Positions 19,447-64,000 of a DNA stretch of 64,000 bases are shown here, one piece after another. The position numbers were made by a program, and so were the translations under genes. Numbering within the stretch: position 1 is the first letter of the stretch; each line of letters opens with the position of its first letter. Under the pieces are notes generated by a model that did no database searches, was not told the DNA's origin, and saw only the letters and a program-made list of their open reading frames with translations. Source of the stretch: Eucalyptus grandis (taxonomy: Eukaryota; Streptophyta; Magnoliopsida; Myrtales; Myrtaceae); contig NC_052614.1 of assembly GCF_016545825.1 (NCBI RefSeq), forward strand, positions 28,049,669 to 28,113,668. The letters run 5' to 3'.

Positions 19447-19571
19447 CGCTATATATCGTCTAAAGCAGTTTAATGCTTATGACTTATGGGAGATTAGAAA
19501 GACATAACCGAAACGTGTGAAGTCATCTATGAAAGTGATAAAATATGAGGCTCCATGCCTCGCCCTCACAT

Positions 19572-20807: not shown

Positions 20808-20854
20808 TGTGATGCGAGCAATGCTATTTTTCTTTTTCCAAGCTTGATAAACTT

Positions 20855-21953: not shown

Positions 21954-22029
21954 TGACGTCATCGATGACGTCATCTCAGTGGTTACCGACCGTTGGATGA
22001 CGTTATCGATGACGTCATCCGTGACGTCA
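21954..22029. promoter_or_regulatory. Array of five TGACGTCA-type palindromes in the copia-2 leader
   Basis: Perfect TGACGTCA octamers lie at 21954, 21966, 22010 and 22022, and TGACGTTA at 21998. Spacings are 12, 32, 12 and 12 bases. TGACG palindromes are the classical binding core of plant bZIP factors of the TGA/as-1 class, so the array looks like an enhancer downstream of the LTR promoter. It could equally be an RNA structural element, since the words are self-complementary. Confidence 0.6.
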
Positions 22030-22465
22030 TCAAGATCACGTCGCTCCGCGCAACGCGCGCGTGATGTCCACGCGTCGGTTCGCCAACCGGCGCATGTTAC
22101 GCACGCGCTGGCGTCCCCAGCGCATTAGGCGCGTGAGGCCCACGCGTAGCAGCTTCTGTCCGTGCGTGTGGGCACGTCCGACGTCCTCCGGTCGCACTCG
22201 AACCAGCGTCAAACTCGTCTCGATGAGTACTTTCATCCTGTATATTCAAAAGTTGATTTTGGCCAAAAAAATAATTCGAAAAACGGCCAAAACCTCACGG
22301 ATACATGGGACCCTGAACCCGTTCTTCGCTTCGGTTCGAATTCGAGTTTTTCAGATGGCAATTTCAACTATCAGAGATCTAAATAGTGTAGATTTCATAC
22401 TCTTGATCTCAATATCAAATGGTGTATTGGAAAATTTGATGAAAAACAAGGCAGAAATCACGACC

Positions 22466-22480
22466 GGGCTCTGATACTAA
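22466..22480 (-). promoter_or_regulatory. Primer-binding site of copia-2
   Basis: Sense TTAGTATCAGAGCCC follows the end of the 5' LTR at once and matches the initiator-methionine tRNA 3' end (TGGTATCAGAGC) apart from one base. Confidence 0.75.
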
Positions 22481-22871
22481 TGTTGGAATTCAAGTCGACG
22501 GAAGACGACTTACCTGATTCCGATGCACAAACAGCAAATAGCCTCAGAACGAACGTTGAATTGCCGATGAAACACGAACAACACTTGCTCACGTTAGTCT
22601 GGATGCAATCACAAGGAAAACACCCGATTTCCACGGCGTAAATGTCGATTGTTCTTGCAAAATTGAAATTGGAATGCCTTCTTCTTCTTTGATGGAAATG
22701 GAGAGAAATCTGGTACGTATGTTTTGCCAACCAGTCCAACGGTTGTGTTCGGAGGCTTTTATACGTCTCCCTTCATATCCCTCCATTAGTGTCTTTCCAT
22801 CGTAACGCATTAAGACGAAACGGTGCGTTCCAATCGCACCCTATCATGGACGTAACAGCTAAAGTACAACA
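22481..22871 (-). repeat. 5' LTR of copia-2
   Basis: 391 bp, same TGTTGGAATTCAAG start and GTACAACA end as the left LTR. Sense TATAAAAG is at 22756-22763, the likely promoter. Confidence 0.9.
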
Positions 22872-24404: not shown

Positions 24405-24870
24405 TCAAGAAGACACTATAGGCATGCTAAAGTTAAAGGGGAGAAAATAAACAAATTTACCAATATATATTCCTTCGAGCCTCAAAATTCCGGATTTGCT
24501 GATCTTACAAGCTTGCTCAAGTGCTAGAGTGCGAGACATCTTCTCAAGCTTTTTCTTAAAGTTGGAAAGGATCATCTTTTCACTAAGGACCGGGAAAACC
24601 ATTATAAAAAAAAAAAAAAAAAAAATAGACTTCATCAAGTTCTTCAAGTTGGACAGATCACATGAACTTCCCCAGGAGCTACAGCCTTTGATCCAAAGAA
24701 TTTCTAGAGATTCTAGTCTATCAAGACCTTGAATGTCAACCAATTTTGGGTTGTGCCATAACTCACACTCTTTACGATTTTTCAAGTCAGGGAAGTTGAG
24801 TAATGTTTGAAGGGAGCGACACTTGGCAATATACAAGAGCTGTAGATTTTCCAAATTGGAAATGATCCAT
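24405..24870 (-). pseudogene. TNL leucine-rich-repeat relic 1
   Basis: The minus frame starts ENLQLLYIAKCRSLQTL and goes on with LVDIQGLDRLESLEILWI, the irregular LRR pattern (LxxLxxLxIxxC) of the C-terminal LRRs of plant TNLs. A poly-A/poly-T run at 24604-24625 interrupts it and may mark a small retroposition scar or an intron. Downstream KSGILRLEGI resembles 27085-27150. No NB-ARC is nearby, so this is an isolated relic. Confidence 0.7.
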
Positions 24871-25146
24871 GCGCGGGCCGGGCATCACATTTTCGTAGGC
24901 GTGACCGGCGTGAGGAGGAAGAAGACCCGTGCTCAAGTTGGGTCAAAATGAAGGGAGATGGGCCAGCCCACGTGAAAAGAAGAAAGGAAGGAAGAAGAGA
25001 GAGAAAAAGAGGTGGGTCTGGCTTGCGCGGGGAGAAAGGAAGAAAGGGGAAAAAGGAGGGCCAGGTAGGGGATTTTTTTTTTTTTTTTTTTACGATTATA
25101 ATTTTTAATAATAATGATATATTTTCTCTTTTTTTCTCTTCTTTTT

Positions 25147-27084: not shown

Positions 27085-28480
27085 CTCCAAGCCTCAAAAT
27101 TCAGGATTTGCTAATCTTACAAGCTTCTTCAATTGCTAGAGTGCGCTTAGAGATACTTGTCTTCCTCTCGCCGAATCTGTCGACAAAACAGCAATCCCAT
27201 TTCTTCAACTTCTTCCAGTTGGATAGATCAAGAAGGCATAGCAAGGAATTGCTACGTAAATGTTAATACCTTCCCGTGACTTTAATATGTCAAGATCTTG
27301 CATCTCGACCAATTTTGGACAATCCCATAGTACAAGGTCCTTGAGATTCTTAAAGACAGGAAGATTGCAATTGTTAACTGTAAGTATCCTCAAACTAGAG
27401 GGGAGTTGTCCAATCTGGCGCAGATTCTTGAAGTTGATGAGTTCAAGTTCTTTTAGACAGCAAAGGCAACCAAAAATATGAGCTCACACTCGTGATCCTT
27501 GAAAGGTTTTTCTTTTATCAGATTCCTCAGAAGTTCCAATATACAAAATGCATTGTCAATTCTTACTTTTGTAAAAGCAATGGGTCATGCGCTGATTGAT
27601 TAGCTCACAAGGTTGGAGAACACTGGAGCTTTTTTTGCGGCTCTTGGGGACAAACATTTACTTACCAACACACCTCGCGGTGGACGAGTCAGTTCACGCT
27701 TCAACCCCTCATCCGGGAGGGTAGAGGTTCGAAACTTCGTGCCCCCATTGCGTGACTTAAGTGGGGTGCCGTGGGAGGTGGGTCCCCACGCTAGTGCCCC
27801 CAGGGTTTACGTCGCCGGCTGCCGGCTGTAAGGTGGTTCCCGGGTCATAAAAAAAAAAGAAAAGAAAAACATAGACTTACCAAATTCTAGGGAAGTTTTA
27901 GTACATTCTCCATATGAGTTTGCATTAATTTCAAGATCTCCCAAAAAGGTAGTCTCACAATATCACAAGGAATTATCTCTAGCCACTTGCAGCCCTCTCC
28001 ATAGATCTCTTCAAGTTTCTCCAACATTCCAATTGTCTCGGGTAACTTTTGCATGTGACTTTTATTCATCTTCAACACTTTCAAGCTCTTTAGATTGACA
28101 ATGGTATTTTGCAACTCTACAATGCATTTTTTTGAGACATCCAACTCAACTAAACTTTTTAACATTCCAATTGAGTCGGGAAGTTTCGTCAGCTTGATGG
28201 CTTCACGAATGACCAAGCGCTCAAGATTTACAAGTGCTCTGATTGAGCTTGGGACTTGACTAATACTTCCTTTTTTGAGATGGTTACCTATCAGCAACTT
28301 AGTCAATGCTCCTAGACAACCTAATTCAACAAGCAGCTCTTCGAGTCATTAACATCCATTTAAATTCAAGTGCTTCAGATGTTTTAGATGACCAATGGAT
28401 CGACCAATGCATGACAAATTCGTACACCCTCCACAATTAATATGCAGAGATATCAGGAGTTGTTTTTAACGTGGGGGCAC
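27085..28480 (-). pseudogene. TNL leucine-rich-repeat relic 2, with a SINE inside
   Basis: Right to left, 28310-28480 encodes SCIGRSIGHLKHLKHLNLNG, then 27887-28306 encodes LRRs (SSIRALVNLERLVI, IGMLKSLVELDVS, NLKSLKVLKM, IGMLEKLEEIYG), ending at a good GTAAGTC donor at 27882. After the SINE-bearing intron, 27205-27393 encodes LRILTVNNCNL and FKNLKDLVLWDCPKLVEM. A stop/frameshift near 28340 and the missing NB-ARC mark it as a relic. It parallels relic 1 and the TNL at 50.8-64 kb, on the same strand. Confidence 0.75.
27669..27866 (+). mobile_element. tRNA-derived SINE, 198 bp
   Basis: The element is bounded by a 17-base direct repeat with two mismatches, AAACATTTACTTACCAA (27652-27668) and AAACATAGACTTACCAA (27867-27883). 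A B box GGTTCGAAAC is at 27726-27735 and an A-box-like TGGACGAGTCAG about 33 bases before it, the spacing of a tRNA promoter. The 3' end is an A-rich tail after GGGTCAT. Its body is GC-rich, in contrast to its surroundings. Inserted in an intron of relic 2, next to the donor. Confidence 0.8.
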
Positions 28481-37120: not shown

Positions 37121-38088
37121 GTCGCCCACCCAAGTGATCCAAGAACCGGGGCTGCAACCACCATACTAGACCTTGCTATCTTTTTCTAGTAGGGGATAGA
37201 GTGAGAGAATGCTTTTGGCAACGGCGACAATGGCCTTGTGTGATGGCAACAGATAACGAGCAGTGCCAAAGGTGTGGTGTGGGGTTGACAAGAGCATGAT
37301 GGTGGCGGAGGTAAACTGAAAAAAAGAGATATTACGTTTAGGCTTTTTGAGTAAATTCTTTAATATTGTGTTGCTTTTTTGTCATTTTGGGTAATTGAAT
37401 AAGAAAAGGATCTATATGCTTTCTCATTATTGACACCTAAATTTCGCATTTTCGCTTAGGATTTATTGTAGAAAATTAGGGATTAATTTTATCCCCCTAG
37501 TAAAATTAATTTTCGCTAAATTGCAATGGATATAAACATTAACAATACTTGCATTACTATTATTAAGTATTAAAGTCTTCAAACAAGATTCAAAATTTTT
37601 ATTATTAATAGGCATGTAATTTATAGATGCCACAGCAAAGATTTGAATGATTAGGTTGTTTAGAAGTACAAATTTTAGTGGATGGTGCTGCTACAATGGG
37701 TGGCGAACTCACTTTGGGTAAAAGTGTAGTTAATGTAAAAGAAAAAAAAAAAAATCGAAAAGGGCCGGTCCAGGGGTGAGCCTGCCCGGCCCTCTCTTCT
37801 CTTCTCTCCTTTTCTTCTTCACGCTAGACCGGCCCAATGCCTCTTCCTTCCTAGCCCCGCCCACTCCTCTTTTCTTCTTTTCCTAATTTTGCCCCGTGTG
37901 GCCCATCTTTCTTATTCCTCAGCCCGGCCCGCTCATTTCTCTTCCTTCTCCTCCGTCGCCTTGGACGCTGGCCGGACGACAAACGGAACGGAAAGGGAGG
38001 GGCACAGAAGGACTGAGGCGAGGACGAACGGAGGCGATGCTGCGCGCGACGCTCGACTGAGAATGTCGTGCGATTCAGGTCTCCGAAA
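37121..38088. other. Gypsy-type LTR-like sequence left of copia-3
   Basis: GACACCTAAATTTCGC and GGGATTAATTTTATCCCC (37430-37500) and the GGGCCGG-rich stretch with C/T-rich runs (37755-37920) are typical of gypsy LTRs. No coding domain; the frame 37889-38101 is compositional. Confidence 0.45.
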
Positions 38089-38321
38089 TGACAGAAACTG
38101 AGGTAGAAGATGAATGCAAAGAATAAGAAGGAGACGTGGGAAATTTTCTGTGTATTCTTTTCTGTATCAATTGATGTACAAAGTCGATCTCTATATAATA
38201 CAATTTGTCTAATAATAAAGAAAGAAAGATTATATTCCTTTAATCTATGTGTATCGATCTAATCCTAAATTGGCTAAAATAAATGATCTGCATCTCTTAA
38301 GAATCATATCTTCTTCCAACA
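38089..38321 (-). repeat. 3' LTR of copia-3
   Basis: 233 bp from TGACAGAAACTGAGG to CTTCCAACA. It lacks about 16 bases present in the other LTR. Confidence 0.9.
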
Positions 38322-38333
38322 CTCCCCTCAAGC
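38322..38333 (-). promoter_or_regulatory. Polypurine tract of copia-3
   Basis: Sense AGCTTGAGGGGAG directly before TGTTGGAAG. Confidence 0.7.
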
Positions 38334-39275
38334 TGGTGGCTTGTAAATATCTAAGACACCAAGCTTGCCTAGAAGATATGAATGTTGTCTTTGACATAAA
38401 GGCTTGGTAAATATATCAGCAGGCTGTTCAATGGTTCTGATTCCTCTTAGTTCGATTATCCCTTCTTGAATCTTCTCTCGAGTGAAGTGACAATCGACTT
38501 CTATGTGCTTTGTCCTTTCGTGTAAAACAGGATTTGCAGCAAGCTTAAGTGCAGAATCATTGTCACAAAATAACAAAGTTGGTCCCTCGACCCTCACTCC
38601 AAGGTCTAGAAGCAAGCCCTGTAGCCAAACTACTTCACAGACAGCCTTCGCCATGGATCGATACTCAGCTTTTGCTGATGACAGGGATACAGTAGATTGC
38701 TTCTTCGTCTTCCATGAGAGTAAGGATTCCCCAAGTTTGATGCAAAAACCAGTGATGGATCTTCGACTCATAGGACAAGTTGCATAATCCGCATCGCAAT
38801 AAGCTGTCATTTTCATGTTGCAATTGCGGGAAAGGAGGATTCCTAGTCCGGGACATTTCTTCAAATATTTCACCACTTTCAAGGCAGCATTCATGTGAGA
38901 CTGTTTTGGGCTATGCATGAATTGACTGAGTGTCTGAACAGCATAACAAATGTCAGGTCTCGTCATAGTGAGATAGATGAGTTTCCCAACTAGCCTTTGA
39001 TAGCTTGACGGGTCCTTGAGCAGTGGATCATTTTCTGTGGACTGGAGTCCTGCATCATATTCTGCAGTGGTTAACTTGACATTTTGCTCGATAGGGATGA
39101 CTGCTGGCTTGCATCCTGATAATCCCGCTTCTGATATAATCTCCAGTACATATTTTCGCTGACTAAGAGAGATACCTTCCTCTGAACGGGCTATCTCAAT
39201 TCCAAGAAAATATTTCGGTGACCCCAAATCTTTGATATGAAACTTGGAATTGAGATTTTCTTTAAGGTTCTTCAC
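38328..39275 (-). pseudogene. copia-3 RT C-terminus and RNase H
   Basis: A 315-codon frame. FHIKDLGSPKYFLGIEIARS and LIYLTMTRPDICYAV complete the RT. CDADYA, STVSLSSAKAEYRSM and LLFCDNDSALKL carry the RNase H catalytic Asp, Glu and Asp. It ends LGVLDIYKPPA at the polypurine tract. All catalytic residues look intact; it is separated from the RT frame by a one-base shift near 39275. Confidence 0.93.
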
Positions 39276-40141
39276 AAAGAAAGCTCATCATTGCCCGTGA
39301 TAAGTATGTCATCAACGTATATCATTAAGTAGACGGATGACGTACCTTTTGTCCATGAGAAAAGTGCATAATCATGCTTGGATTGTTGGAAGCCCACAGC
39401 TGTGAGTGCACTTGTGAACTTGGCATACCACTGTCGCGAAGCCTGCTTGAGACCATAAAGGGATTTATGGAGTCGACACACATTGGACTCCCCCTGTCTC
39501 CGTAAACCCGGTGGAAGATCCATATAAATTTCTTCATCTAAATCTCCATGAAGAAATGCATTATGAACATCCATTTGATGTAATGACCAATCACGAAATG
39601 CAGCAATGGATAAAAATGTACGAACTGTAACATCCTTTGCTATTGGAGAGAAAGTTTCGTGATAGTCAAAACCTGCTTTCTGAGTGAACCCTTTAGCCAC
39701 TAATCGAGCCTTGTATCTTTCGATGGACCCGTCGGCTCTATATTTGATCTTGTAGACCCACTTGCAACCAATTGGCTTGCGATTTGGTGGTAATGAGACG
39801 ATATCCCATGTATTATTTTCTAACAAGGCATGCAATTCTTTTTCCATGGCTTCTTGCCAACGAGGGTCTTTGACAGCCTCATTGTAATGAGATGGTTCTT
39901 GTTCCTCAGATACTCGACTAATGCAACACATATGATTCGTTGATAATCTTTGTAAAGATACATATGCGGAGATAGGATAATGTGTACCTGATAATTTGGA
40001 AGCCGTGCAAATATAATCCTTTGTCCATGTAGGTGGACGAGTATTGCGTCCTGATCGCCTGGGCATTTGGGGCTGTGGACTAGAAGATATCTCCTCATTG
40101 TGTGATACTTCTTCATTTTTGTCATGTCCTGGGGACGTCAT
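39272..40141 (-). pseudogene. copia-3 reverse transcriptase with intact YVDD
   Basis: A 289-codon frame with NNTWDIVSLPPNRKPIGCKW, RLVAKGFTQKAGFDYHETFS, LHQMDVHNAFLHGDLDEEIY and YVDDILITGND near the end. The linker before RT is acidic and serine-rich. The frame ends by a shift six residues after the catalytic box. One base would reconnect it to the RNase H frame, so decay has only begun. Confidence 0.93.
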
Positions 40142-40150
40142 ATCAACTTC

Positions 40151-40948
40151 TTATGTGTTTCCAATAGAGTTATCCATGGAATGTGCATCAGAATTTGGAG
40201 ATGGTGCTGTAATGCCCGATGTATGTTCTGGACTTGTGAGAATATATGTTTGGCCAGGAGATGATTCTTCATCTGATACAAACCGAGTATGATCGGTGTC
40301 CTTGTCGGAATTTGCAGACGGTTCTGATTTATCACGGAAGGGAAATATTTCCTCATGAAAGACGACGTCCATGCTTATAAAAAATTCTCTAGTGGATGGC
40401 TCAAAGACTCTATATCCCTTTTGTAAGGTGGCATACCCCATAACGATGCCTTTGGCGGGCTCTAGGACTCATCTTGTCTCGAGGTCCTACCGTTGTTACA
40501 TAGCATAGACAACCAAAAACTCTTAAATGATGTGTTTCCGGTTTTTTTCTATAAAGCATCTCATATGGAGTTTTACCAGCAAGCATCCGACTCGGCATAC
40601 GATTAATCAGATAAGCAGCTGTAATTATGCAGTCTCCCAAAAATTTTCAAGAATTGAGGCTTGAAATTTCAAAGCACGCGATACCTCTAATAAATGCCGG
40701 TGCTTGCGCTCAACAATGCCATTTTGTTGTGGAGTGTAGATACATGAGCTTTCATGCAGAATTCCATTTGAGGAGAAAAAAATCTCACATTCATTGCTGA
40801 AGAATTCCCTTCCATTATCAGTGCGAATGCGCTGAATAGACTTCCCAAATTGATTCTTGGACAGGGAGAAGAAAGTTTTCAGATAATGAAAAACTTGGCC
40901 CTTGGACTGCATCAGAAATACCCATGTGGCTCTTGAAAAATCATCCAC
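40151..40948 (-). pseudogene. copia-3 integrase core and C-terminus
   Basis: Three overlapping frames (40625-40948, 40410-40640, 40151-40441) form one integrase: MDDFSRATWVFLMQ with the first Asp, RIRTDNGREFFSNEC with the second, YTPQQNGIVERKHRHLLE with the Glu, then LINRMPSRMLAGKTPYEML and VFGCLCYVT. Frameshifts at about 40630 and 40435 split it. Confidence 0.9.
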
Positions 40949-41015
40949 AATTGTCAGAAAAATCGGGAACCATCACGATTTGGTGTGTGATAAGGTCCCC
41001 AAATATCGGCATGGA

Positions 41016-41525
41016 TTAGAGAAAAAGATCTTTTGCACGAGAGACACTATTTGGAAAGGGTGTACGAGTTTGCTTTGCCAATGGACAAATGGGACAATGA
41101 GAACAAGGAATAGAGGCGCTATGGCCCAATCTTTGATGACTAACAAGAATTTTATCATTGGTAGCAGAATTACACAATGACAAATTATTCAATTCAACAG
41201 ATGATAAATGTGAACTGCAGGGAAATTTCATCCAAAAATATAGCCCTTGAGAGATACTACCCAAGCCCATCAGTCTGCCAGTCGAAAGGGCTTGAAATAT
41301 ACATTGATCAGAATCAAATAGGACTTGGCACGAATTTTCTTCACAAACTCGAGACACTGATATTAGATTGAAATTGAAATCAGGAACATATAATACGTTC
41401 TTGAGAGTTATGAGTGGGCTAAGATTTATGGTGCCAATCATCATCACAAGTGTGGAATTACCATTGGGAAGCTGTACTGAAGCTGGAATAGGCAATTTAT
41501 GGATTTTTGAAAAAAATTTTATCAC
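41016..41525 (-). pseudogene. copia-3 protease tail and integrase zinc head
   Basis: ASVQLPNGNSTLVMMIGTIN and LKNVLYVPDFNFNLISVS follow the protease active site. HQRLGHSASIPCSHCPIC supplies the integrase HHCC head. Upstream the active-site DSG is destroyed: the Ser codon is a TAA (41546-41548) and one base is lost just after it, so protease is dead although RT and RNase H look intact. Confidence 0.85.
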
Positions 41526-41651
41526 AGCAATATGATCATCGGCCCTTAATCAATTATCCACTTATCATTGGAAATTGAATTCGCCAAACAATATGAAGTA
41601 CCCAGTGAAGCTTCCAGTCTTGTCGAGATGTGTCCAATTTTTTGAAAGCCT

Positions 41652-43325
41652 TCATAAGTTCTTGATATTGCTCTTGGTTAATTGGCTGATGTTGTCCTCA
41701 CTTTGAAAGACAGTTGAAAAATCCTTTTCTCCTTTTTCTCCAGGCTTGCAATGTAGTTTCCAGCAATTATCAATTGTGTGATGAGGGCGCTTGCAATAAT
41801 CGCAGTATAATTTACCTTTGCCCTTGAAATTTCCCTTTAATGTTGCAGCATATGGCGGTCCAATTGGACCTTTTAAATAGGGCGAGCTCGCTGCTTCTTG
41901 TGGACCGTCGGATGCGAAGAAAGAGCGCGGGCCGTCGGATCCTGTGGAGAGCGAGATCACATGCGAGCCGTCCGATGCTGCCGAGAAGAATCCTCGGTGA
42001 CCGTCGGATCCGATCGGTGGGTGTGAGCCACGTGAGCCGTCAGATCGCCTTGAAGAATCGTGGCCGTCCGCTCCTCCTTTCCTTAGGGTTCGAGAATCTT
42101 CAACAAACCCTAAGTTTTGCCCGATTCTCCCCCTTTTTGCTGCTCCTCTCTCCAGAGCACTGCCGTGTACAGCAAGTGCGATTCCTTCTTTGGGATTGTC
42201 GAGCACAGCAAGACGCTGGCTTTCCTCCTGCGTTGCAAGTTGGTAGATCCGAGCGAGGGTTGGCGTTGGATCCATGGTGAGTATCTGCGTCCGGAAAGAG
42301 AGGTACGATTCATTTAGGGCAAGGAGAAATCTGGTGACTTTTTCTCGTTCCCGGATGGTTCGATATTGTTGAAGTGTCGACTCAGGTCCTTCTAATTTTT
42401 CTTCCACCGCATCTAATTCATTCCATAACGCTGAGATCTTGTTGTAAATGGTGGCTACGCTCATGTTTCCCTGTTTCAATTCCGAAAGCTGTTGGGTTAA
42501 TGAAAAAACTCGAACCCGATCCAATTTCCCGTACATTTCTTTTATATTTTCCCACATCTGTTTTGGGTCTTCCGTCGGCGGTAATCCGGCCGCGACCGGA
42601 AGTAACACGGTTTCCGATCCATGTCTGGACCAACGGTTACACTTCCTCCATAGTCGTGCCTGCCGCTCGTCGGATGGGATTGGAATCGTTCCATCAATAA
42701 ACCCATCTTTTTCTTTGGTCACCAATGCACGCCGGAATTCACGCGACCAGCTTGAATAGTTGTCAGCCCCGGTGAGTTGCTGGGTGATGAGCCGTAGCTC
42801 TGGCCCGTCGGCCGTTGTGGTGTAAAGCGGATCGCCGGGTTCCAGCTTGCCACCGTTGGCGAATATCCGATATGGAAAGGGACTCGGTGCAGGAATCGGG
42901 TAGGGATTTGCGCCTTGACCCGAACCGCCCAAGCCAAAACGTGACTCGCATTTTGAAATCCGGGTAGGGATTTGTTCCCATACCCGGTCCAATTGAACCG
43001 CCCGTCGCTCCGGGCCGATGGCAGGATTTGCCCCATCACCGGTTGGTAGATCTCCGTCGCTCGCACACTTCTTTGGTAGCGGGCGATGATGCATTGGGAA
43101 TCGACCCATGATACCATGGATACGGCATCCATTGGTAGGGATAGCCCGCGAAGGGTTGTCCTGTATTAGCCTGAGTCCGATGCTGCCATTGCACGTGCGG
43201 TTGCTGAATTTGTTGTTCTGGTGCAGAGATGACAATAGATGAATCTTGATTTCCAATGGGTTGCATCGGTGCTTCATTTGCAGACTGGTCGGCTGAAAAC
43301 GAGGTAAGATCTTTGGTTTTGTCAT
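41652..43325 (-). pseudogene. copia-3 gag
   Basis: From about residue 165 the frame reads DPLYTTT, LTGADNYSSWSREFRRALVT and DGFIDGTIPIPSDE, the start of copia gag of the Retrofit type. It continues through the UBN2 helices to a zinc knuckle CDYCKRPHHTIDNC near the end. The N-terminal 160 residues lie in a poor frame; the better start is probably the overlapping 43036-43266 frame (MQPIGNQDSSIVIS), separated by a frameshift. The segment before the knuckle is a repeated, serine/glycine/aspartate-rich SDG spacer. Confidence 0.85.
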
Positions 43326-43487
43326 GTTGAAAAGAAAACTGATTCCTCTGTTAACTCCTTTTGCAGATGAGGTTCCTCACTTTAGGTAATCAACACTGTG
43401 ATTCCTTCGGCAACACTTTGTCTGGAATTTACACTTTGTCTGGAATTTGGAGTGGCTTACGAGGTAATCGGAGCGGAAGCGGAAAAA

Positions 43488-43502
43488 GGTAGCTCGATAC
43501 CA
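43488..43502 (-). promoter_or_regulatory. Primer-binding site of copia-3
   Basis: Sense TGGTATCGAGCTACC stands right after the LTR end TTTCTGTCA and resembles the initiator-Met tRNA complement TGGTATCAGAGC with a base missing. Confidence 0.7.
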
Positions 43503-43749
43503 TGACAGAAACTGAGGTAGAAGATGAATGCAAAGAATAAGAAGGAGACGTGGGAAATTTTCTGTGTATTCTTTTTGTATCAATTGATGTACAAAGTCGA
43601 TCTCTATATAATACAATTTGTCTAATAATAAAGCAAGAAAGATTATATTCCTTTAATCTATGTGTATCAGATCTAATCCTAAATTGGCTAAAATAAATGA
43701 TCTGCATCTTTAAGATATACACCAGATCAGAATCATATCTTCTCAAGCA
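43503..43749 (-). repeat. 5' LTR of copia-3
   Basis: Nearly identical to the left LTR, with an extra ATATACACCAGATCAG block near its outer end. The outer terminus differs from the left LTR (CTTCTCAAGCA against CTTCTTCCAACA), so the exact right boundary is between 43743 and 43760. Confidence 0.8.
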
Positions 43750-43766
43750 TAATTGCCACACCATAA

Positions 43767-46700
43767 TCACAGATTTATTATTGTTGATCTTATCCTTTCC
43801 TGTTTGTATAGTTGAAACAATCAGTCAACTATAAAATGCCAAATGAAGATATGTCAAAAGTCCTTGAGTGCCAACGTTTAAGAGATAAATCATTGGACTA
43901 CATGTGAATAAAACTAATAAAGCAGGTGCATTAAATGTGACCCCTATTCAAATTTGTGCTTATCGAGTAGAAACATGACAGATTAATGTGGAAATAAAAA
44001 TGCTGCATAAGAACGTCCTAATCTGGCAATCATTTACCCTCATAGCCGTAGAGTTATCAGGCAGCCTTATGGACCGGCATTGTGATGGTTCATTGATTTC
44101 TGTCGGTTTCCAATTTCTTAATTTGTCTCCTGAGTTATCAGCAATTCCAGGCTTCACATCGGCCATGCTCTCACTGTCCTGTAGAGCTCAAAAGAGAGGA
44201 TGTCATTGAAAGACGCCCAATAAACATGCACACACAAATGCAATTATTGCATCATTTAAGTAATAAAATAAGCAACGAATAAAGCTCGTTAAAAACATTT
44301 AACTACCTAATGCAGTGATGATACCACTTCCCATACCTACCATTTCCGCCTGATGGTTTTCTAGTTTATATGCCAGTGCGTGCAGATGTGCGAGGAGCAA
44401 AGGAGACAATATTTGGTAGTTTCAAAGCGCCGTGTTAACTGCTGATGTGGCGAGATTTTTTCCTTGATATCTACTTAAAAATTTACATGTCTTGAATTAA
44501 ATTAAAAAATATTGATGTGGAGTTTCTTTGTGCGGTGGAACTGTTTCCTCTAGCCTCATCTTCCTCGTTCGTCCAAAGCCAGCCACTTGACCTCGGACGA
44601 GCTGGCATGGCCGATGATGCGTCGGTGACGCTGCTGGCTCTTCAGATCTGGCCGACCATGGCCATGGGCGTCACCTAGACGAGTGAGGCCGCTGGCTCTC
44701 CAAATTTGGCCGTCCATGGCCGTCGGCATCACACACGAACCTTGCTCCGCCATGGCCGGCGACACTGTTGGCTCTCGAGATCTGGCCGTCCATGGTCGTC
44801 GGCGTGGCTCATCCCGTGATGCTGTTGAAAAGTTGGAAAAGAAGTTTCTTTTTCTTATTGTTCCCCACCATTCTTTGCTTCTTATATTTTCTATTTTTTT
44901 TTTTGTCTCCTTTCTTGTTACGCGCTCTGTCCATGGCCGTCTGCAACTTTTAACGCCGTCTCTTAAGGCGACCTCTAACGGCGGTCATTGCTGCAGCTCG
45001 AGGTGATGTCACGACCTTCGCCACGGCCAGATCTGGACGCTCGGCCTCCATTGCCATTGAGCCTCTACATCTGGAGGCGATGGCCTTCTATGGCTGCCAA
45101 GCTCGACGTTGTGACCGAAATCTCGGCGGCTTCTCGGCGGTCATGGAGGAGCCGCCGAGCTCGAACCGTTTTTAAGGCAGACGATATCTAGCGTAGAGTC
45201 GAGCTCGACTGGATTCGGAGGCGGCCATGGACGAGCTTGAAGCAAGTGAAGGTGGACTAGATCTGGTGCAGCGCCGAGGCCACGACTCGGCTAGATTTGG
45301 AGCTCGGCCTCCAGAGCGGTGGTGTTCAAGGGGGCAGCCGGCTAGTCCGAGGTCCATAGCCGGTGGATCATCAAAGGAATTTTATTTTTAATTCAAAATC
45401 TACAGAGATGTGTTAAAATATGACTGGATGGATGTGAGGAAAAAATGCTCCGCAAGTCACAGTTGCTGCTGATGTAATATAATAGGACAAGGATTTCTGA
45501 AAGTGGCAGCAAGGGAGCACAATGATATATATATATAAAGGCTTTTATTATCCAACGCATAGTACAAACGAAGGCAGGAGGTTTATTTTAGTTGGTGTAT
45601 TATGGCACGAACGACAACTATTTTGTTTCTGTAACTAAATTCTAGTCACAAATAAATTTTTCTATTTTTAATCCATGAAAGAGAAACTAAGCAAAAATAA
45701 TTTCTAAGTGTCGACTATCAATTGGTGGAGAGTGACGGGGAGGCAGGTGGTTAGCACATGATGGTTGCATATGACGAGGGCAAGTAAAGAGAAACGTTTT
45801 TATTTTTGTTTTTATTCTAGAAATGTAAAAAAAAAATTATTTATTGTTTATATTCTAAGTCTATTTATGAACTAAATTTTTTTGGGAAATAAAAAATAAA
45901 ATTATATTATCAAACCAATTTTATTTCAAATCTATTTTTAGAATAAAAAAATAGAGACCCAAATGTATTTGCTTTTGGACGACCCTAAGCCTTTTTTATA
46001 GGCTTGCATCAACAACTAAGACATGCAAAAATCTTTGCTTGAGTCAGAGATATTTTTAAGGCAAGTATCTCTGCCATGCTGTAGAGATAATTTTTAATAA
46101 TTTTTCTACACAAAACTTTAGATAATCCTACCAATTTTTTTTTTTAAAATATCTTTCTAGACTTCTCTTCCAAATGCACATCAAGAAATGGGATCAAACA
46201 TTTTAATTCTGCCACTGGAACCCCTCTATTACCTGGTTTGCCCCAATAGTAGCATTACCAGAACTAAATATCGCAATTGTTGGTTGCAATACAAAATTGA
46301 AGACATTTAGTGAGCTCATCTCTATGAAGTCAGTGTGCTCTTGAAAAATCTTACCTTCATAAGAGGGCTAGGAGTGATTCTAGAAGCATCAAAAGGCCAA
46401 TTGTCCATTGTCCTTAGCAAGCTAATCCCATCAGCATTTGCTAAAATTTTGATACTATTGTCACTTGTTGAGATTGCTAATAGAATTCCTTCCTTGTTAA
46501 ATCTAATACAAGGTGAAGCCTGCAAATTTAAAGAGCGAGTTTAATGGAAAGGTTCAGCTAATTCAATCATATTAAATTAACAATAATGAATTACCGGCAA
46601 TTCACTGTCGGCATCAATACTTGTCAAAATATCATTATTGTCCATATCCCAAAATTTGACCATGGACTCGTCTCCAACAGCCAAAAATCTATTTTTGGCA

Positions 46701-49700
46701 GTATCAAACTGCACGAACCCACTAGATCTCTTTCCAAGTCCATGATAGGTACGCTTGATAGCCCCCTCACTTTCATTCCATTCAACCAAGTATGACTCTC
46801 CTTCTTTGTTGGTTCCACATAAGAACAACCTATAGCCAAATAAAATTGCTAAAATAGGTTATCTAAGTTAGAAAGGGTGACATAGGATAAAATCAAGCTT
46901 GAAATGCAATGCTGATAGTCTAAACCTTGTTCCATCAGCGCTGTATGCCATCTTGGTAAAAGAGTGACCCGGTGCATCAAAGTCAACTCTTGACCCCATG
47001 TTGTCATAAAACCAAGCCTTAATTTTCCCATCTGTTGCTGTTGAGAAGATGAACTACACAATAAAACAATCCTACCATCAATTTCAATAACATGTCTAGA
47101 TAGAGCACATCCACCTAAAACTCTAATAGATTTCATAAAATATCTTTATAATAAAGTGTACACAACCATAAATATTTTGAAAAAAATTTAAAAGTCATCC
47201 CCAATTGCTGCTTCACCCAGGCACAATAAATAGCAATCTATTATTAATTTAAACAATCAAAACTAGAGGAGAAACTGAGGGAGAACAATAATGGAAGCAG
47301 AGCAAATTTCCTTCTGAACTTATATCAAGAAGGAAGTCATTATTGTGAAGACTTTTACCCAATTGTTGATGCTTAGTAGCATTGTCTAAAATAATCAAAT
47401 TTGTAGTTTAATCTTTGGACCATGCCACCATGTTTAACAAGCACATTCGAATCAAGACAGGTCAAAAGTTAGAAGACTTGCAAAATCCTTGAAATGAACA
47501 AGGTCCATTAAAACATAGATTCACACTTCTTATACAAATTCAACCAAATTTTTTGACCTAACCGAGTTTTAGCAAACAAAGTCCAATGAATGGTCAAGCG
47601 TAGAGCCGATTGGCCATGCTTGCAGCGTGTCCTTGTTAGTACACGAAATAGCCAAGTACCTGAATATTTTCTCTGTTGTGTGGAAAAATGGAATATACGG
47701 GTGCTTCATGACCCTCGAAAGTCAGTTGCTTAGCCCCACTCACTGCATCCCATACCTGCCTAACTACTAGTTTGGTTAAAAGGATCAAACAATGGAACAT
47801 TGTAACACTAAAGAAAATAATAAGAATATACCTTGATCAACTTGTCCTCTCCACAAGTCACAACACATAATTGTTTGTTTGGACATGAAAAGGCAAGATC
47901 ATTTACACTTCCAACATGAGCCTCGAGCTGTATCAGACATTAGATTAGAGTCAAAAATCAAGTTGAACTCACATTTAGGTGGCAATTGTCACAAGAACAG
48001 AGAAGCTTAATTTTTTTCTCCTTGTTTGGCAACAAACCTCAAGGTGATTCCTTATGTCATCACCACCATGATGTGAGTATATGTGCACCATGTGTTTGGA
48101 ATAAGCAACACCTAAAGTGAACACCACCAATCATCAGTAGTAGTAGCATATGAACTCTTCTTCTTGAAGATATTGCAATGAAGTCTAGTTCTTGGCGCTT
48201 TAGTTTTTTCACCAATTTGCAAGCATGTATTGCCTAATTACTTAAGTTGATATAGAAGTAAAACTAACATCTATACATACCGAAAAGGATTCCATCAGGA
48301 CTCCACATTACATGGTTAACGGATGTTGTGTAGTCATTGGCCAGAGAAGCCTACAAAGAATCAAAACCCATAATCACATGTCCAAAAACAAGACACCATT
48401 ATTTTATTTAGAATTGAACTTCTATACCTGCAGTGCCATTGAACATGTTCCCAGATCCCAAACCTTGAATTTTCTCACAGCAATCCTTGCACCACTGTCT
48501 ACTTCCCATACCATGACATCACCCACATTTGTTCCCACTAAAAATTATTGATGCAGAAAATTTGAAGAGTCATATCCCGTGGATTCAAATAGTTAAAGCA
48601 AGCGTCAAAAGGACAATGAAAAGCAATCTTCCAAATACCAAAGCACAAACTTATGGCCTACAAGGGGAATAAGTATATCCAACTAAAGAGGATAAGTACA
48701 CTAGAAGTGCCAAAAGTTATATACGATGCTCATTTTAGTGTCAAAATTTTTCGCTGACTTAAATAAGTGCTAAATCGGAGGAAAAACAATCATTTAAGTG
48801 CCAATGATGAGAAATTCCGTCTAAATTGATTTTGCGTCATTTATAATTAAATTTATAATATGACTTAGCAAATTTTCTAAAAACTCTAGTCCATGTGGCA
48901 TTTCCACGTGGCGTGCTTGGTAAAAGTTATTGCTTTTTCATAACAACTAGCATTAAAGTGATCATTTTAAACAAAATTTGGCACTCAAATTATCACTTTA
49001 AATAAAATTTAGCACTCAAATGATCATTATTTATAACTTTTGGATGACGTCATTTAAGGATTATATGCTGACGAGACACGCAAATGAGCCATGTAGAATT
49101 GAGAAATTAATAAAATATAATCATGTCGGATTTCCCATGATCCAAATCGGAGTTGACACTCAAATGATCGTGTTTTTTTTTTTTTAAAGTGGCACTTAAG
49201 TGATAAAAAAAAAAAATTGGTACTAAAGTGAACGTCGTACATAACTTTGACACTTCTAGTATACTTATCCCCAACTAAGATAAGCAAGAAACATGGTCTT
49301 CATAGAGTAAGAAAGAAGTGCTAACCAAGCAACAGAATTTGTTGCACTGGATGGAAATCCATACTCTTAACAAGTGAACCTTGACTTAGGGTAATGACTA
49401 CATTTCTGGGCAAGTCATCTGAAGAATAAGAACTTTGACCGAGGCTTTGGTAGTTGTATGTGTCAAGTAGAATGTTTATTGGCAAATTTTTCACCTAATA
49501 GAAGGTCATAAAGATTACAAAACCAGTGAGTCCTTTAGAGAATAGATCAAAACCATGACACTCAAAAGATGCAAAACTCATATGAGAACTACTCTTTTAT
49601 TAGCATACTAAGCACAATGAATGCATGATGGAGAAGATGTAATCATCACTTACCTAGTCCATGCTCCTCATTAATGCTACCAATATTGGCATAGGCTATT

Positions 49701-50615
49701 TACATGACGATACCAAATACGAAAACACAGACACAGCCCAATATGACACATCACCACATGTTTAGATATTTACATGTTTTTGTCTAATTCAATGATTTGA
49801 CATGTCTAATAGAAGTCATGATGAATTGACATGGTCACAAACACAATTAAGACAAGCAAACACAAATTGACAACCTTAGCCCCTTTGCTCCATTATCTCT
49901 CCATCAAACTTCCTATTAATCCTTCCAATCCTCAATTATTTCATTAGGTTAACATCATGAAAGTTAAGGGTATCTAGGAACCTGAAAAACTAAAATTTTC
50001 TTCTTGTTGGGTGGTCTAGGGCTCATCTCACCCCAAAAGCTAACTTAAAAGGTGAGGCTTTCCCTCATATTTATAAATTGACCACCATCCATTTCCACAA
50101 TCAATATTTATAAATTGACCACCATCCCTTTCCACACTTCTAAAGATTCTCAATGCATGATCATATGCCGCAATAGCACAAAAGTGAGAGCACTTTCAGA
50201 AAGTTTTCGATCAATGGCATGCAAAAAAAGATAATTAAAAAAGAGAAACGCAAAAGAACGGGAGATATTATCCAACTTCACTTTATAATTTAAGAAAACC
50301 AAAAATCCCCACTTCCATGAGTAGAAGACTTAAAATAGCAAGAAGTGCATGTGACAACTCTAAGAGATCTAGTTATGAATGTTGAGAAAAGCATTCCATA
50401 CATAACAAATAATAAATCACTCTGTAAAATACTTCTTTTGTAGATGGAACCATCCTCTAATTACTGAAGAATGATAAATAAAAAGCAAGATGAAATAAGT
50501 ACTTCATATGAGATTCCAAAAGGTCTTGATCTCTTCAAAACATGTTCAGAATTTGCCATTTGGTAGTCCATGGATGAGCTGTTGGCAGGAGGACTCTTGG
50601 GATGCTTTAAGAGAA
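43767..50615 (-). CDS. TPR: TOPLESS-related (TPR) corepressor fragment: linker plus first WD40 propeller
   Basis: Exons, 5' to 3' on the minus strand: 50615-50503, 49494-49326, 48537-48428, 48350-48281, 48111-48038, 47927-47832, 47755-47660, 47053-46926, 46829-46595, 46519-46355, 44178-44038, and 43799 to a TGA at 43767-43769. All introns are GT-AG, phases agree throughout and no stop occurs in the first eleven exons (1,397 nt). Landmarks: SEHVLKRSRPFGIS, SMDFHPVQQILLLVGTNVGD, KVWDLGTCSMALQ, YSHHGGDDIRNHLE, VTCGEDKLIKVWDA, LTFEGHEAPVYSI, GTNKEGESYLVEWNESEG, FNKEGILLA and TEINEPSQCRSIRLPDN. These match plant TPL/TPR proteins, nuclear corepressors for EAR-motif transcription factors. The LisH/CTLH N-terminal half that binds EAR motifs is absent, and the second propeller is cut off by copia-3. 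The first exon is preceded by an AG acceptor and can splice in phase to the TNL LRR exon ending at 50815. Confidence 0.9.
44457..45465. mobile_element. Mutator-like element in a TPR intron, 1.0 kb, GC-rich cargo
   Basis: CTGCTGATGT stands on both sides (44447-44456 and 45466-45475), 10 of 10. The arms are imperfect inverted repeats (AGATTTTTTCC... against GCATTTTTTCC... complement, then TTGAATTAAA-TAAAAA). The core 44540-45350 is GC-rich and partly repeated (GCTGGCTCT, TTGGCCGTCCATGG words). Frames inside it (44683-45006, 44988-45191) are compositional. Confidence 0.65.
45476..46354. other. TPR intron remainder
   Basis: AT-rich intron between exons 10 and 11. An (AT)n run lies at 45523-45536. 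No gene. Confidence 0.6.
48690..49270. mobile_element. Mutator-like MITE in a TPR intron, 581 bp
   Basis: Long inverted termini: GGATAAGTACACTAGAAGTG at left and the complement of GGATAAGTATACTAGAAGTG at right, continuing for more than 50 bases. The flanks are CCAACTAAAGA (48679-48689) and CCAACTAAGA (from 49271), a 9-10-bp duplication with one base difference. It lies between TPR exons 2 and 3 and does not disturb splice sites. No coding sequence. Confidence 0.85.
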
Positions 50616-50814
50616 CTGCATCGAAAGACAAAAAATAAATAGAATGCCTAACTAACAGCTTGGACTTTTGGAAAATACAAAATCAAGTTTCACAACTTTC
50701 AACAAAGTGTTATAGAAAGGTTTGGGAGGCATTCAAGTCAATCAGAAATAGTGAGTTTCTTGAGAAAGTTTAGTTGAGAAAGATTCAACGATTGTGGAAT
50801 CTAGTAAGTGATAC
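50616..50814 (-). other. Putative fusion intron between TNL LRR and TPR exons
   Basis: The donor CTAG/GTATCA at 50815/50814 follows the LRR codon for Leu in phase 1. The acceptor TTTCGATGCAG/TTCTC at 50616/50615 is preceded by a T-rich tract. The 199 bases between are AT-rich with stops in all frames of interest. Removing them gives Leu-Val-Leu-Leu-Lys-His-Pro without a frame break, while reading through ends at a TAG at 50801-50803. Confidence 0.6.
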
Positions 50815-53800
50815 CTAGAGCTAGTATGCGAGAGCGCAGCTCATATAGTTTTTGATACTTGTCTAAATCAAGATTGTTTGGCGAAACCAATTGGCCATTA
50901 TTACTAGCTGGCCCTTCTAGATTTTTCCATCCTAAAGCTCTTAACCCTTGGAGTTCTGCCAATATTCCCCGGTCATCAAGTAGTTCTATTATAGGAGTTT
51001 CACAAATGTCCAACATCCTCAAGTTCTGCATACTTCTAATGCTTTCAGGTAGTTCTTCAATGGCGGTGGATTTCAAATGCAGCTTAGTCAATGATGTCAA
51101 CTTTCCGATCGAGTTTGGGATTTGTCTCAATGAGTAGCATCCCGACAATGACAACCAAGATAGAGACACAAGGGAGCCTATGGAGTCTGGAAGTTGAGCA
51201 AGTTTTTTGCATTCTCTTAGGTCAAGTTGAGACAGAGATGCTAAATCGCCTATTGAGTTAGGCATGCGGGCTAACAATGCACAATAAGAAGCATCTAAAG
51301 TCTTGAGCTTCTTTAAAGATCCAATGGATTCAGGCAATTCTTCAATGGCCATAGATTTCAAATGCAACTTAGTTAATGATGTCAACTTTCCAATCAAGTC
51401 TGGGATTTGTCTCAAGGAGTGGCATCCCGACAATGACAGCTGCGATAGACACACGAGGGAGCCTATGGAGTCTGGAAGTTGAGCAAGTTTTTTGCATTCT
51501 CTTAGGTCAAGTCGAGACAGAGATGCTAAATCGCCTATTGAGTTGGGCATGCGGGCTAACGATGCACAATAAAAGACATCTAGAGTCCTGAGCTTCTTTA
51601 AAGATCCAATGGATTCAGGCAATTCTTCAATAGCCATAGATTCCAAACGCAACTCAATCAATGATGTCAACTTTCCAATCGAGTCTGGGATTTGTCTCAA
51701 GGAGTGGCATCCCGACAATGACAGCTGCAATAGACACACGAGGGAGCCTATGGAGTCTGGAAGTTGAGCAAGTTTTTTGCATTCTTTTAGGTTAAGTCGA
51801 AACAGAGATGCTAAATCGCCTATTGAGTTGGGCATGCGGGCTAACGATGCACAATAAGAGGCATCTAGAGTCTCGAGCTTCTTTAAAGATCCAATGGATT
51901 CAGGCAATTCTTCAATGGCCATAGATTCCAAACGCAACTCAATCAATGATGTCAACTTTCCAATCGAGTCTGGGATTTGTCTCAAGGAGTGGCATCCCGA
52001 CAATGACAGCTGCGATATACACACGAGGGAGCCTATGGAGTCTGGAAGTTGAGCAAGTTTTTTGCATTCTTTTAGGTTAAGTCGAAACAGAGATGCTAAA
52101 TCGCCTATTGAATTGGGTATGCGGGCTAACGATGCACAATAAAAGGCATCTAGAGTCCTGAGCTTCTTTAAAGATCCAATGGATTCAGGCAATTCTTCAA
52201 TGGCCATAGATTCCAAATGCAACTCAATCAATGATGTCAACTTTCCAATCGAGTATGGGATTTGTCTCAAGGAGTGGCATCCCGACAATGACAGCCGCGA
52301 TAGACACACGAGGGAGCCTATGGAGTCTGGAAGTTGAGCAAGTTTTTTGCATTCTTTTAGGTTAAGTTGAGACAGAGATATTAAATCGCCTATTGAGTTG
52401 GGCATGTGGGCTAACGATGCATAATAAAAGACATCTAGAGTCCTGAGCTTCTTTAAAGATCCAATGGATTCAGGCAATTCTTCAATAGCCATAGATTCCA
52501 AACGCAACTCAATCAATGATGTTAACTTTCCAATCGAGTCTGGGATTTGTCTTAATGAGTGGCATCCCGACAATGACAACCAAGATAGAGACACAAGGGA
52601 GCCTATGGAGTCTGGAAGTTGAGGAAGTTTCTTGCATTCTCTTAGATCAAGTCGAGACAGAGATGCTAAATGGCCTATTGAGTTGGGCATGCGGGCTAAC
52701 AATGCACAATAAGAGGCATCTAGAGTCTCGAGCTTCTTTAAAGATCCAATGGATTCAGGCAATTCTTCAATGGCCATAGATTTCAAGTACAACTCAGTCG
52801 ATGATGTCAACTTTCCAATCGAGTCTGGGATTTGTCTCAAGGAGTGGCATCCCGACAATAACGGCACACTAGAGTCTCGAAGTTGAGCAAGTTTTTGCAT
52901 TCTTTTAGGTTAAGTCGAAAGAGATGCTAAATCGCCTATTGAATTGGGTATGCGGGCTAACCACATCTAGAGTCCCGAGCTTCTTTAAAGATCCAATGGA
53001 TTCAGGCAATTCTTCAATGGCCATAGATTCCAAACGCAACTCAATCAATGATGTCAACTTTCCAATCGAGTATGGGATTTGTCTCAAGGAGTGGCATCCC
53101 GACATTGACAGCTGCGATAGACACACGAGGGAGCCTATGGAGTCTGGAAGTTGAGCAAGTTTTTTGCATTCTCTTAGATGAAGTTGAGACAAAGATGCTA
53201 AATGGCCTATTGAATTGGGTATGCGGGCTAACGATGCACAATAAAAGGCATCTAGAGTTCTGAGCTTCTTTAAAGATCCAATGGATTCAGGCAATTCTTC
53301 AATAGCCATAGATTCCAAACGCAACTCAATCAATGATGTCAACTTTCCAATCGAGTCTGGGATTTGTCTCAAGGAGTGGCATCCCGACAATGACAGCTGC
53401 GATATACACACGAGGGAGCCTATGGAGTCTGGAAGTTGAGCAAGTTTTTTGCATTCTCTTAGGTCAAGTCGAGATAAAGATGCTAAATCGCCTATTGAGT
53501 TGGGCATGTGGGCTAACGATGCACAATAAAAGACATCTAGAGTCCTGAGCTTCTTTAAAGATCCAATGGATTCAGGCAATTCTTCAATAGCCATAGATTC
53601 CAAACGCAACTCAATCAATGATGTCAACTTTCCAATTGAGTCTGGGATTTGTCTCAAGGAGTGGCATCCCGACAATGACAACCAAGAGAGAGACACAAGG
53701 GAGCCTATGGAGTCCGGAAGTTGAGCAAGTTTCCTGCATTCTCTTAGATCAAGTCGAGACAGAGATGCTAAATGGCCTATTGAGTTGGGCATGCGGGCTA

Positions 53801-54524
53801 ACGATGCACAACAAGAGGCATCTAGAGTCTCGAGCTTCTTTAAAGATCCAATGGATTCAGGCAATCTTTCAATGGCCATAGATTTCAAACAACTCAGCAA
53901 TGATGTCAACTTTCAATGATGTTTGTCAACTTGGCATCCACAATAACAACTCGATAGACACACAAGAGAGCTTGAACAAGTTGAGCAAGTTTTTTGCATT
54001 CTCTTAGGTCAAGTCGAGAAAGAGATGCTAAATCACCTATTGAGTTGGGATGCGGGCTAACGAGGGACAACCAAAGGCATTTAGAATCTTGAGCTTCTTT
54101 AAAGATCCAATGGATTCAGGCAATTCTTCAATTCCTGTGTTTGATAAGTCTAGCTGAGTTAACGATATAAGAGAGCCTAGGGATTTTGGAAGTCGAGCAA
54201 GTTGTTCACAATATGAGGCATTTAGATTCTCCAACTTCGTCAAACAACCTCTTGAAATTGGAATCTCTAGTATATTAGTTTCATTTATGAGAAGTTCCCT
54301 CAATTCTTCCATTCTACCAACTCCTAGCGGTAGTTCCTTCAATTTATGACAATAACCGACATTCAAGGAGACAAGGGTCTTGATGTCCTCAATAGAAGGA
54401 TGAATCTTTTCTAGACCCTCACATTCTTCAAGTACCAAAATCTCCAAGCTCTTGAAAGCGGACAAGTCGGGAGTTGTTCTAAAGCACAATTCGAAAGGTT
54501 GAGAACTTTGAGCTCCGTTGCCAT
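50815..54524 (-). pseudogene. TNL leucine-rich-repeat exon with tandem 4-LRR array
   Basis: The acceptor CTTTCAG/ATGGCAACGG at 54525/54524 starts the exon with MATELKVLNLSN. The reading frame breaks near 54478, then 54037-54489 (LRRs up to SLKKLKILNAF), 52905-53909 and 50815-52900 are open in turn. The repeating pattern is LPDSIGSLVCLSQLSLSGC, then IPDSIGKLTSLIELRLES, then LPESIGSLKKLRTLDVFYC, then MPNSIGDLASLSRLDLREC. The 3' open part alone has 695 codons and reads straight into the TPR exons. The last repeat ends in a non-LRR tail (ILAELQGLRALGWKNLEGPA). In TNLs this domain senses effectors or guards; here two units carry frame-breaking deletions, so the full-length receptor is probably not made. 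Confidence 0.88.
51321..54107 (-). repeat. Tandem array of 285-bp LRR units
   Basis: The anchor CCAATGGATTCAGGCAA occurs at 51321, 51606, 51891, 52176, 52461, 52746, 52993, 53278, 53563, 53848 and 54107. Eight of the ten intervals are exactly 285 bp, i.e. 95 codons or four LRRs. The two exceptions (247 and 259 bp) are the decayed units. Units are nearly identical, which implies recent amplification or gene conversion. Confidence 0.95.
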
Positions 54525-55583: not shown

Positions 55584-55880
55584 CTTTAGTGGGCCCCATC
55601 CTCCCCAGTCCTCCGAAATCTGACTATTCCTCAAGTCGAGCACAATTAATTTCTTCAGGTGAAAGTTGGCCTCTTCAAAATCCAAGCAACAAGACCCCCA
55701 TTCAAGCCATCTTAATTTAGGAAGTAAGTTCTGAAAATCTCCAGTAAGATTCACACCGTTCACTTGAAGGAACCTTAAGTTGGTCAATTCTTTGAAGTTC
55801 TCAGCCGCGTAGCTTTCTCTATATAAAAATGTGAAGCTCAAGAGGTGGTCCTTGAATTTTCCTCTACCAATTATGCCCTT
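55584..55880 (-). CDS. TNL first LRR exon
   Basis: Open from about 55892. The recognisable TNL sequence starts GRGKFKDHLLSFTF, then ENFKELTNLRFLQVNGVNLT, FQNLLPKLRWLEWGS and FHLKKLIVLDLRNSQISEDW, ending at the strong donor AAG/GTAAGATG after WGGWGPLK. This is the usual junction segment between NB-ARC and the LRR proper in TNLs. The upstream acceptor is not clear: candidates lie within 55860-55940, and sequence beyond 55892 has stops in this frame. Confidence 0.75.
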
Positions 55881-63327: not shown

Positions 63328-64000
63328 CTTATTATTGTAAATCACATCTTCATCTTCCTCAATAATCCATAATCTGCTACGATTTTGAGGTTCCCTTGAT
63401 TTTCTAGATAAACAATTTCCCTTCCAAGATCTCTCAATTGATCATGCATCATTAGATCACCCTCTTCATCAATTTTAATAAGGGACATAAGACTCAATAC
63501 TTCAATCCCCTTCCCCGGAAAAAAACCACATGCATCCCACATGTAAGTCGGATTTTGTTTAGATGATCCAATAAAAAAACATGCTATATCCAAAAAAATC
63601 TGTTTCTCCCGATAGTCTAATGCCTCATAACTCACCCTCAACGTGTCTTGCACTCTCTTTTCAGGCACCTTCTTTAATTTCTTTAATGTATCTTTCCATA
63701 CTTTTTTTGTCTTTCCATATAAGAATGAACCTATAATTTTGAGAGCTAAGGGAAGTCCCCCAGTAGTTAATACAACATCACGAGAAATATCCTCATCATC
63801 ACTTGGAGGAGAATCCTTTCGAAAAGCATGTCTACTAAATAAAATCAATGATTTATCTAAAGGCAACTCGTTGAGTGGGTACATGTGGTCTACTCTAGCC
63901 TCGTCAAGGATCCCCTTGTTTCTAGTTGTTATGATGACTATACTTCCTGCTTTAAACCAATTATGATCTCCGGCCAAAGCATTCAAGTGAGTAATATCAT
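63328..64000 (-). pseudogene. TNL NB-ARC domain, C-terminal half, runs off the window edge
   Basis: The first codons read DITHLNALAGDHNWF, the kinase-2 region, so P-loop and TIR lie beyond 64000. Then come SIVIITTRNKGIL (RNBS-B), GGLPLALKIIGSFL (GLPL), the REKQIFLDIACFF motif (RNBS-D of the TIR class) and MHDQLRDLGREIV (MHD). This is the nucleotide-binding switch of TIR-type immune receptors. After YLENQG the annotated frame is wrong: one base change in phase near 63388 gives EPQNRSRLWIIEEDEDVIYN, the conserved TNL continuation, and leads to the donor AAG/GTAAGAG at 63328/63327. That frameshift, if real, kills the protein; it sits in a short A/G run where sequencing error is also possible. 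Confidence 0.88.

Follow-up and report, generated by a model that had tools for sequence, protein, structure and literature searches.

The window analysed here, a stretch of 64,000 nucleotides of Eucalyptus grandis DNA taken at its full length (64 kb, GC 37%), carries pieces of a TNL gene, including part of its NB-ARC domain and a long LRR exon, followed across a short intron by exons of a TOPLESS-related (TPR) gene and then by a Copia element. All of these features lie on the minus strand and are arranged as follows.

63399..63998, minus strand: C-terminal part of the NB-ARC domain with GLPL, winged helix and MHD, continuing past the window end (Pfam NB-ARC 8e-13, WHD_ROQ1 4e-15; tblastn with residues 352-551 of the Corymbia TNL-TPR protein P0126, 76%)
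63328..63398, minus strand: last part of the NB-ARC exon, read in a different frame (...NNK|gtaaga), from tblastn and sequence (P0126 from residue 553 on, frame -2, a weak tblastn match, E 7e-4)
55584..55817, minus strand: first LRR exon with donor AAG|gtaaga (tblastn, P0126 589-666, 68%); start approximate, 5' end unlike that of relatives
50815..54524, minus strand: main LRR exon of 285-bp tandem units with at least three frame changes, from sequence and tblastn (open frames 54522-54040, 53912-52908 and 52909-50816; Pfam LRR_14 1.4e-97); its 3' end encodes about 56 residues of post-LRR tail
50616..50814, minus strand: fusion intron of 199 bp (gtatca...gatgcag), from sequence, the junction being present at protein level in 8/9 relatives
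50503..50615, minus strand: TPR4 exon 1, (V)LLKHPKSPP..., from about TPR4 residue 280
49326..49494, minus strand: TPR4 exon 2 (this and exons 3 to 11 from sequence and tblastn)
48428..48537, minus strand: TPR4 exon 3
48281..48350, minus strand: TPR4 exon 4
48038..48111, minus strand: TPR4 exon 5
47832..47927, minus strand: TPR4 exon 6
47660..47755, minus strand: TPR4 exon 7
46926..47053, minus strand: TPR4 exon 8
46595..46829, minus strand: TPR4 exon 9
46355..46519, minus strand: TPR4 exon 10, end of the first WD40 propeller (WD40-1)
44038..44178, minus strand: TPR4 exon 11, between the propellers, the last TPR exon found
43767..43799, minus strand: proposed exon 12 with a stop, adjoining the Copia LTR and unlike the next TPR exon of relatives
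38088..43755, minus strand: Copia LTR element, LTRs alike at 212/216 bp, outer edge approximate (gag 41655-43376, RT pieces 38331-40150)

The original prediction, made from the letters of the window, placed the end of an LRR exon at a phase-1 donor at 50815 and, after a gap of 199 bp, a TPR acceptor of matching phase, and both the splice sites and the phases agree with it. The donor GT lies directly 3' of 50815 on the minus strand (GCTCTAG|gtatca), the acceptor AG lies directly 5' of 50615 (cgatgcag|TTCTCT), and the splice from LRR to TPR is phase 1 to phase 1. In the list of open reading frames of the 64-kb window the last LRR frame runs from 52909 to 50801 on the minus strand; this frame and the 11 TPR exons, joined throughout by GT-AG introns in a single frame, give 1,164 residues free of stops, the donor after 50503 (GAA|gtactt) being weak when judged by eye.

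Exons 1-11 correspond to TPR4 (TOPLESS-RELATED PROTEIN 4) from about residue 280 and, when spliced, are 77.6% identical to Syzygium TPR4. The TPR part of the window shares 97.6% identity with the LRR-TPR protein EUGRSUZ_C01424 annotated in E. grandis, whose junction is the same, and this match is far beyond chance. The counterpart of this TPR start in ordinary TPR4 lies near residue 280 and reads ...A ILKRPRTPP, which makes it probable that the fusion is spliced at the acceptor native to TPR. WD40-1 is present in the window in exons 1-10. The TPR exons had further been expected to continue in one frame to a stop at 43767, and this expectation stands for the 11 exons that fit TPR4 and falls for the twelfth (43799-43767), rejected as a TPR exon, where the window reads ERIRSTIINL and the relatives VPKLSYTN or VSRLIYTN, with the Copia LTR next to it. 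What stands 3' of the last TPR exon is the Copia element and not a natural gene end; it occupies the place where the exons of the second propeller (WD40-2) would start, and a target-site duplication of the element at 38088..43755 was not recognised by eye. Comparison of the WD40-2 sequence of three relatives with the 64-kb window (E cut-off 10) gave short scattered matches only, the best at E 2.3, and TPR4 residues 1-276, which represent the LisH/CTLH/CRA head, had no tblastn match in the window better than E 0.4. Head exons or WD40-2 at other places in the window were also considered and set aside, the matches being scattered and at chance level.

The upstream TNL had been described as frameshifted, which is true and more extensive than was supposed. 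The main LRR exon (54524-50815) runs through frames -2, -1, -3 and -1, and the NB-ARC exon, whose start lies beyond the window end, changes frame near 63398; the TIR and P-loop part of the gene would fall past position 64000. The LRR units of 285 bp (95 residues), found between 51006 and 53850, are mostly 91-97% alike with some losses, and the array is best read as recent tandem growth. One unit spacing, between 52717 and 52964, measures 247 bp and the frame is lost there, and assembly error in the repeats may be the source of the frame changes. All 11 TPR exons are open despite the damage to the LRR and NB-ARC parts. With frame changes in both of these parts and WD40-2 not found, the window copy has probably ceased to work as a receptor and is a degraded member of a family that may itself be functional.

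Elsewhere in the window a further minus-strand LRR fragment (27890-28456, Pfam LRR_14) and, by eye, a stretch resembling LRR (24408-24884, without a Pfam match) were found, so the window may sit in a TNL cluster. A second minus-strand Copia element lies at 16101-22871, whose long repeats are 90-93% alike and enclose gag and RT pieces, and a LINE-type RT lies on the plus strand at 993-1634.

Relatives were sought among predicted proteins only, some of which were perhaps built by similarity. A TPR query gave 383 matches of 6,682 candidates and an LRR plus TPR query (region 600-1160) gave 2,283 matches of 7,988 scored, the best 120 being listed in each case, and a query composed of the Corymbia tail and TPR exons 1-2 gave 14 matches of 210 candidates. 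At least nine Myrtaceae gene models from four species and three genera join an LRR or an LRR tail to TPR: P0004 (C01431), P0121 and P0125 in E. grandis, P0144, P0238, P0239 and P0241 in E. globulus, P0126 in Corymbia citriodora and P0240 in Syzygium oleosum. Such models are already public, several of them as hypothetical or uncharacterised proteins. The junction reads SR[VI]L..V[LF][LF]K in P0121, P0125, P0126, P0238, P0239, P0240, P0241 and P0004 and differs in P0144 alone, and TPR4 is entered after the LisH/CTLH head, at about residue 280, in all fusions where this is visible. The relatives thus bear out the claim that a TNL was joined at the DNA level to TPR exons lacking LisH/CTLH. Proteins with NB-ARC, LRR and a TOPLESS-type WD40, which had been proposed as a further check, exist as four models (P0126, P0238, P0239 and P0240) in which TIR, NB-ARC, LRR and TPR stand together, with P-loop, GLPL, MHD and the TIR motif SxWCLxEL, the last of which contains the catalytic Glu. 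The P-loop also occurs in P0241. Both propellers, down to a TPR4-type C-terminus, are present in P0238 (3,076 residues) and P0240 (2,382 residues); the second propeller is found in P0125, P0144 and P0241 as well, the last of which lacks most of WD40-1, and is partial in P0121. P0239 has a short TPR part that gives no WD40 model match at 1e-10, and over 212 residues it is 83% identical to the TPR part of the window.

The post-LRR tail bears on the possibility that gene finders have chained two neighbours, a TNL that ends at a stop of its own (50803-50801) and a truncated copy of TPR4 that starts independently, which we consider distinctly improbable. An in-frame stop does begin 12 bases into the intron in the LRR frame, phases would match by chance in one case of three, and for three models from E. 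grandis that belong to the TPR group of the fusions (C01437, H02668 and C01404) the start is placed at an internal Met (MDYQ) within TPR exon 1, so annotators there took the TPR part as a separate gene. Against such chaining stand the identical junction in eight of nine models, drawn from several species and genera, and the tail of 56 residues, which occurs in 8 of the 246 proteins fetched and is followed by TPR in all eight, a count biased towards fusions by the TPR-containing queries used for fetching. The search with the tail and TPR exons 1-2, which covered proteins of at least about 1,018 residues, matched eight LRR-TPR models and six ordinary TPR/TPL proteins, with no unfused TNL carrying the tail among these 14 matches.

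In a tree of TPR segments, which held 29 of 32 rows (P0239 and P0241, with segments below 270 residues, and the rearranged P0033 being omitted), a single group, with support of 88/97, below the strict mark of the tool, unites eight fusions, the window included, and six TPR models that lack an LRR. This group stands beside ordinary Myrtaceae TPR4, the Syzygium fusion branches first within it, and the Rhodamnia fragment P0086 is placed outside. The possibility that the Syzygium fusion arose separately, out of the TPR4 of Syzygium, was rejected (p-AU 0.015, for a group named after the tree had been seen). Corymbia belongs to Eucalypteae, as does Eucalyptus, and Syzygium to Syzygieae; the fusion is, on the gene models of both tribes, which have the join in common, not a local accident. 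The E. grandis TPR4 model EUGRSUZ_C01368 has a locus number close to those of the fusions C01424 and C01431, and these neighbouring locus names suggest that local duplication lies behind the fusion.

Between the tribes (P0240 against P0126, P0238 and P0239) identity is 56-58% over TIR and NB and 74-81% over the start of the LRR, the tail and TPR; since the former falls below the latter, the receptor heads may have been exchanged, with the LRR-TPR part recombined onto different TIR-NB heads. An extra WD40-2 unit of about 65 residues occurs in 6 of the 11 models in the fusion group and in none of four ordinary TPR4 proteins, being common to the Syzygium fusion and part of the Eucalyptus fusions, with a shortened form in P0131. 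The near-identical P0002 and P0125 differ in this unit, so annotation may matter here. The unit was also considered as a folded blade, which the model of P0129 leaves unsupported (mean pLDDT 60.2, below 50 in 558-638).

WD40-1 is 78-79% identical between the Eucalypteae and Syzygium fusions, compared with 91% between Syzygium and E. grandis for the same region of ordinary TPR4, and the fused copies therefore change faster. Such a difference would also be seen if the fusions were a lineage of pseudogenes only, duplicated and functionless in every species, and this account could draw in addition on the window copy, broken in the NB-ARC, in the LRR and at the Copia element, and on models that appear, by eye, to end in intron sequence, namely P0004 (C01431) and P0020 (C01364) in intron 11 and P0126 in intron 9. 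We nevertheless hold it to be very doubtful, as the models P0238 and P0240, of 3,076 and 2,382 residues, retain TNL motifs and both propellers.

The interpretation that we consider probable is that the window holds a damaged TNL of a Myrtaceae family with the layout TIR-NB-ARC-LRR-[WD40-1 + WD40-2], in which the TPR part would act as an integrated decoy for effectors that target the WD40 domains of TPR proteins. The ground for this is a junction shared at the protein level, a single TPR group in the tree and full-length gene models, all of them read from sequence; the function is our inference. Through duplication at the DNA level, an ancestral TNL would have gained the exons that follow the TPR4 head, at a matching intron phase, before Eucalypteae and Syzygieae separated. 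Positioned behind the LRR, the TPR propellers would then serve as bait for effectors that bind the WD40 domains of TOPLESS-family proteins, and effector binding would release the NB-ARC and lead to TIR signalling. Fungal, oomycete and bacterial effectors are described as attacking TOPLESS-family corepressors in passages of PMC10754003, according to which SIX8 binds WD40-1 of TPR1 and, as cited there, a Melampsora effector contacts poplar TPR4. Passages of PMC8126959 report that Jsi1 binds WD40-2 of TPR and that the N-terminal head of the TOPLESS family is the binder of LxLxL EAR motifs. A headless fusion would be expected to lack binding of LxLxL EAR clients and could therefore serve as bait without acting as a repressor; a headless TPR behind the LRR would be suited to bait and poorly suited to repression.

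The main functional rival to a decoy is an output role in cis. SNC1 and TPR1 cooperate, and by analogy the TPR part of a real fusion could be an output module by which corepressor partners or targets are brought in cis after activation; we regard this as unlikely. The retention of both propellers in P0238 and P0240 would suit it, as would the part of TPL/TPR in defence, for which passages of PMC8126959 cite Zhu et al. 2010. What tells against it is that the fusions, by entering TPR4 near residue 280, leave out the EAR-binding head, and that in the PDB, for the best 60 of 485 sequences, TPR/TPL chains span residues 1-209 only. For the decoy reading we see about an even chance that a TNL which acquired headless TPR propellers before the Eucalypteae/Syzygieae split gave rise to a lasting, diversifying family guarding the TOPLESS hub, with WD40-2 having gained a repeat in part of it. 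If this is true, a headless TPR on a TNL would reveal the face of TOPLESS that is under pressure from pathogens, would point towards effectors in the pathogens of eucalypts and myrtles, and would allow the integrated-decoy idea to be tested readily on a hub protein; it would, moreover, exemplify an integrated domain that different tribes have retained, intron pattern included.

WD40 domains in plant NLRs have been tabulated before, and TOPLESS itself is AT1G15750. In Sarris et al. 2016 (PMC4759884) WD40 is integrated in NLRs of six species (B. rapa, M. domestica, M. truncatula, O. sativa, S. bicolor and T. cacao), E. grandis being absent from that row and present in others, and the effector-target table pairs HARXL21 with AT1G15750 and WD40; by word count, its main text nowhere contains 'topless'. 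The main text of the Melaleuca NLR paper (PMC10720953) has neither WD40 nor topless, its integrated-domain table standing in the supplement, and the passages of PMC9153377, PMC9806590, PMC7145615 and PMC10720953 seen report no TNL-TOPLESS fusion. The literature searched, a scope outside which supplements and most subscription papers lie, likewise holds no report of such a fusion, nor of a receptor that watches the TOPLESS family via a built-in copy.

Outside Myrtaceae, the pear protein P0104 ('TMV resistance protein N-like') resembles the fusion in joining an LRR to a TPR-type WD40; it differs in the position of the TPR join, falls outside the Myrtaceae group in the tree and is a single gene model, perhaps an artefact or an independent case. 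In cacao P0110 an RPS2-like LRR is joined to a TPR WD40, and it and the pear protein are perhaps independent fusions or gene-model errors. The models P0016, P0024, P0029 (oak) and P0068 (wheat), which bear the name or label of F-box proteins, have a TPR-type WD40 with no LisH_TPL in the listed Pfam columns, and are perhaps another use of headless TPR propellers.

A close known protein is TPR4 itself, which exons 1-11 match from about residue 280 and whose ordinary Myrtaceae forms neighbour the fusion group in the tree; the fusion differs from it in lacking the LisH/CTLH/CRA head, in the window also in lacking a detectable WD40-2, and in some fusions in the additional WD40-2 unit. Among integrated-decoy NLRs a close known system is RRS1, a TNL with a C-terminal WRKY domain. 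The likeness lies in a TNL that bears, after its LRR, a copy of a host transcription regulator attacked by effectors (passages of PMC10720953 and PMC9153377). The two differ in the domain carried: in RRS1 it is a WRKY, whereas the Myrtaceae fusion has a pair of TOPLESS-related WD40 propellers.
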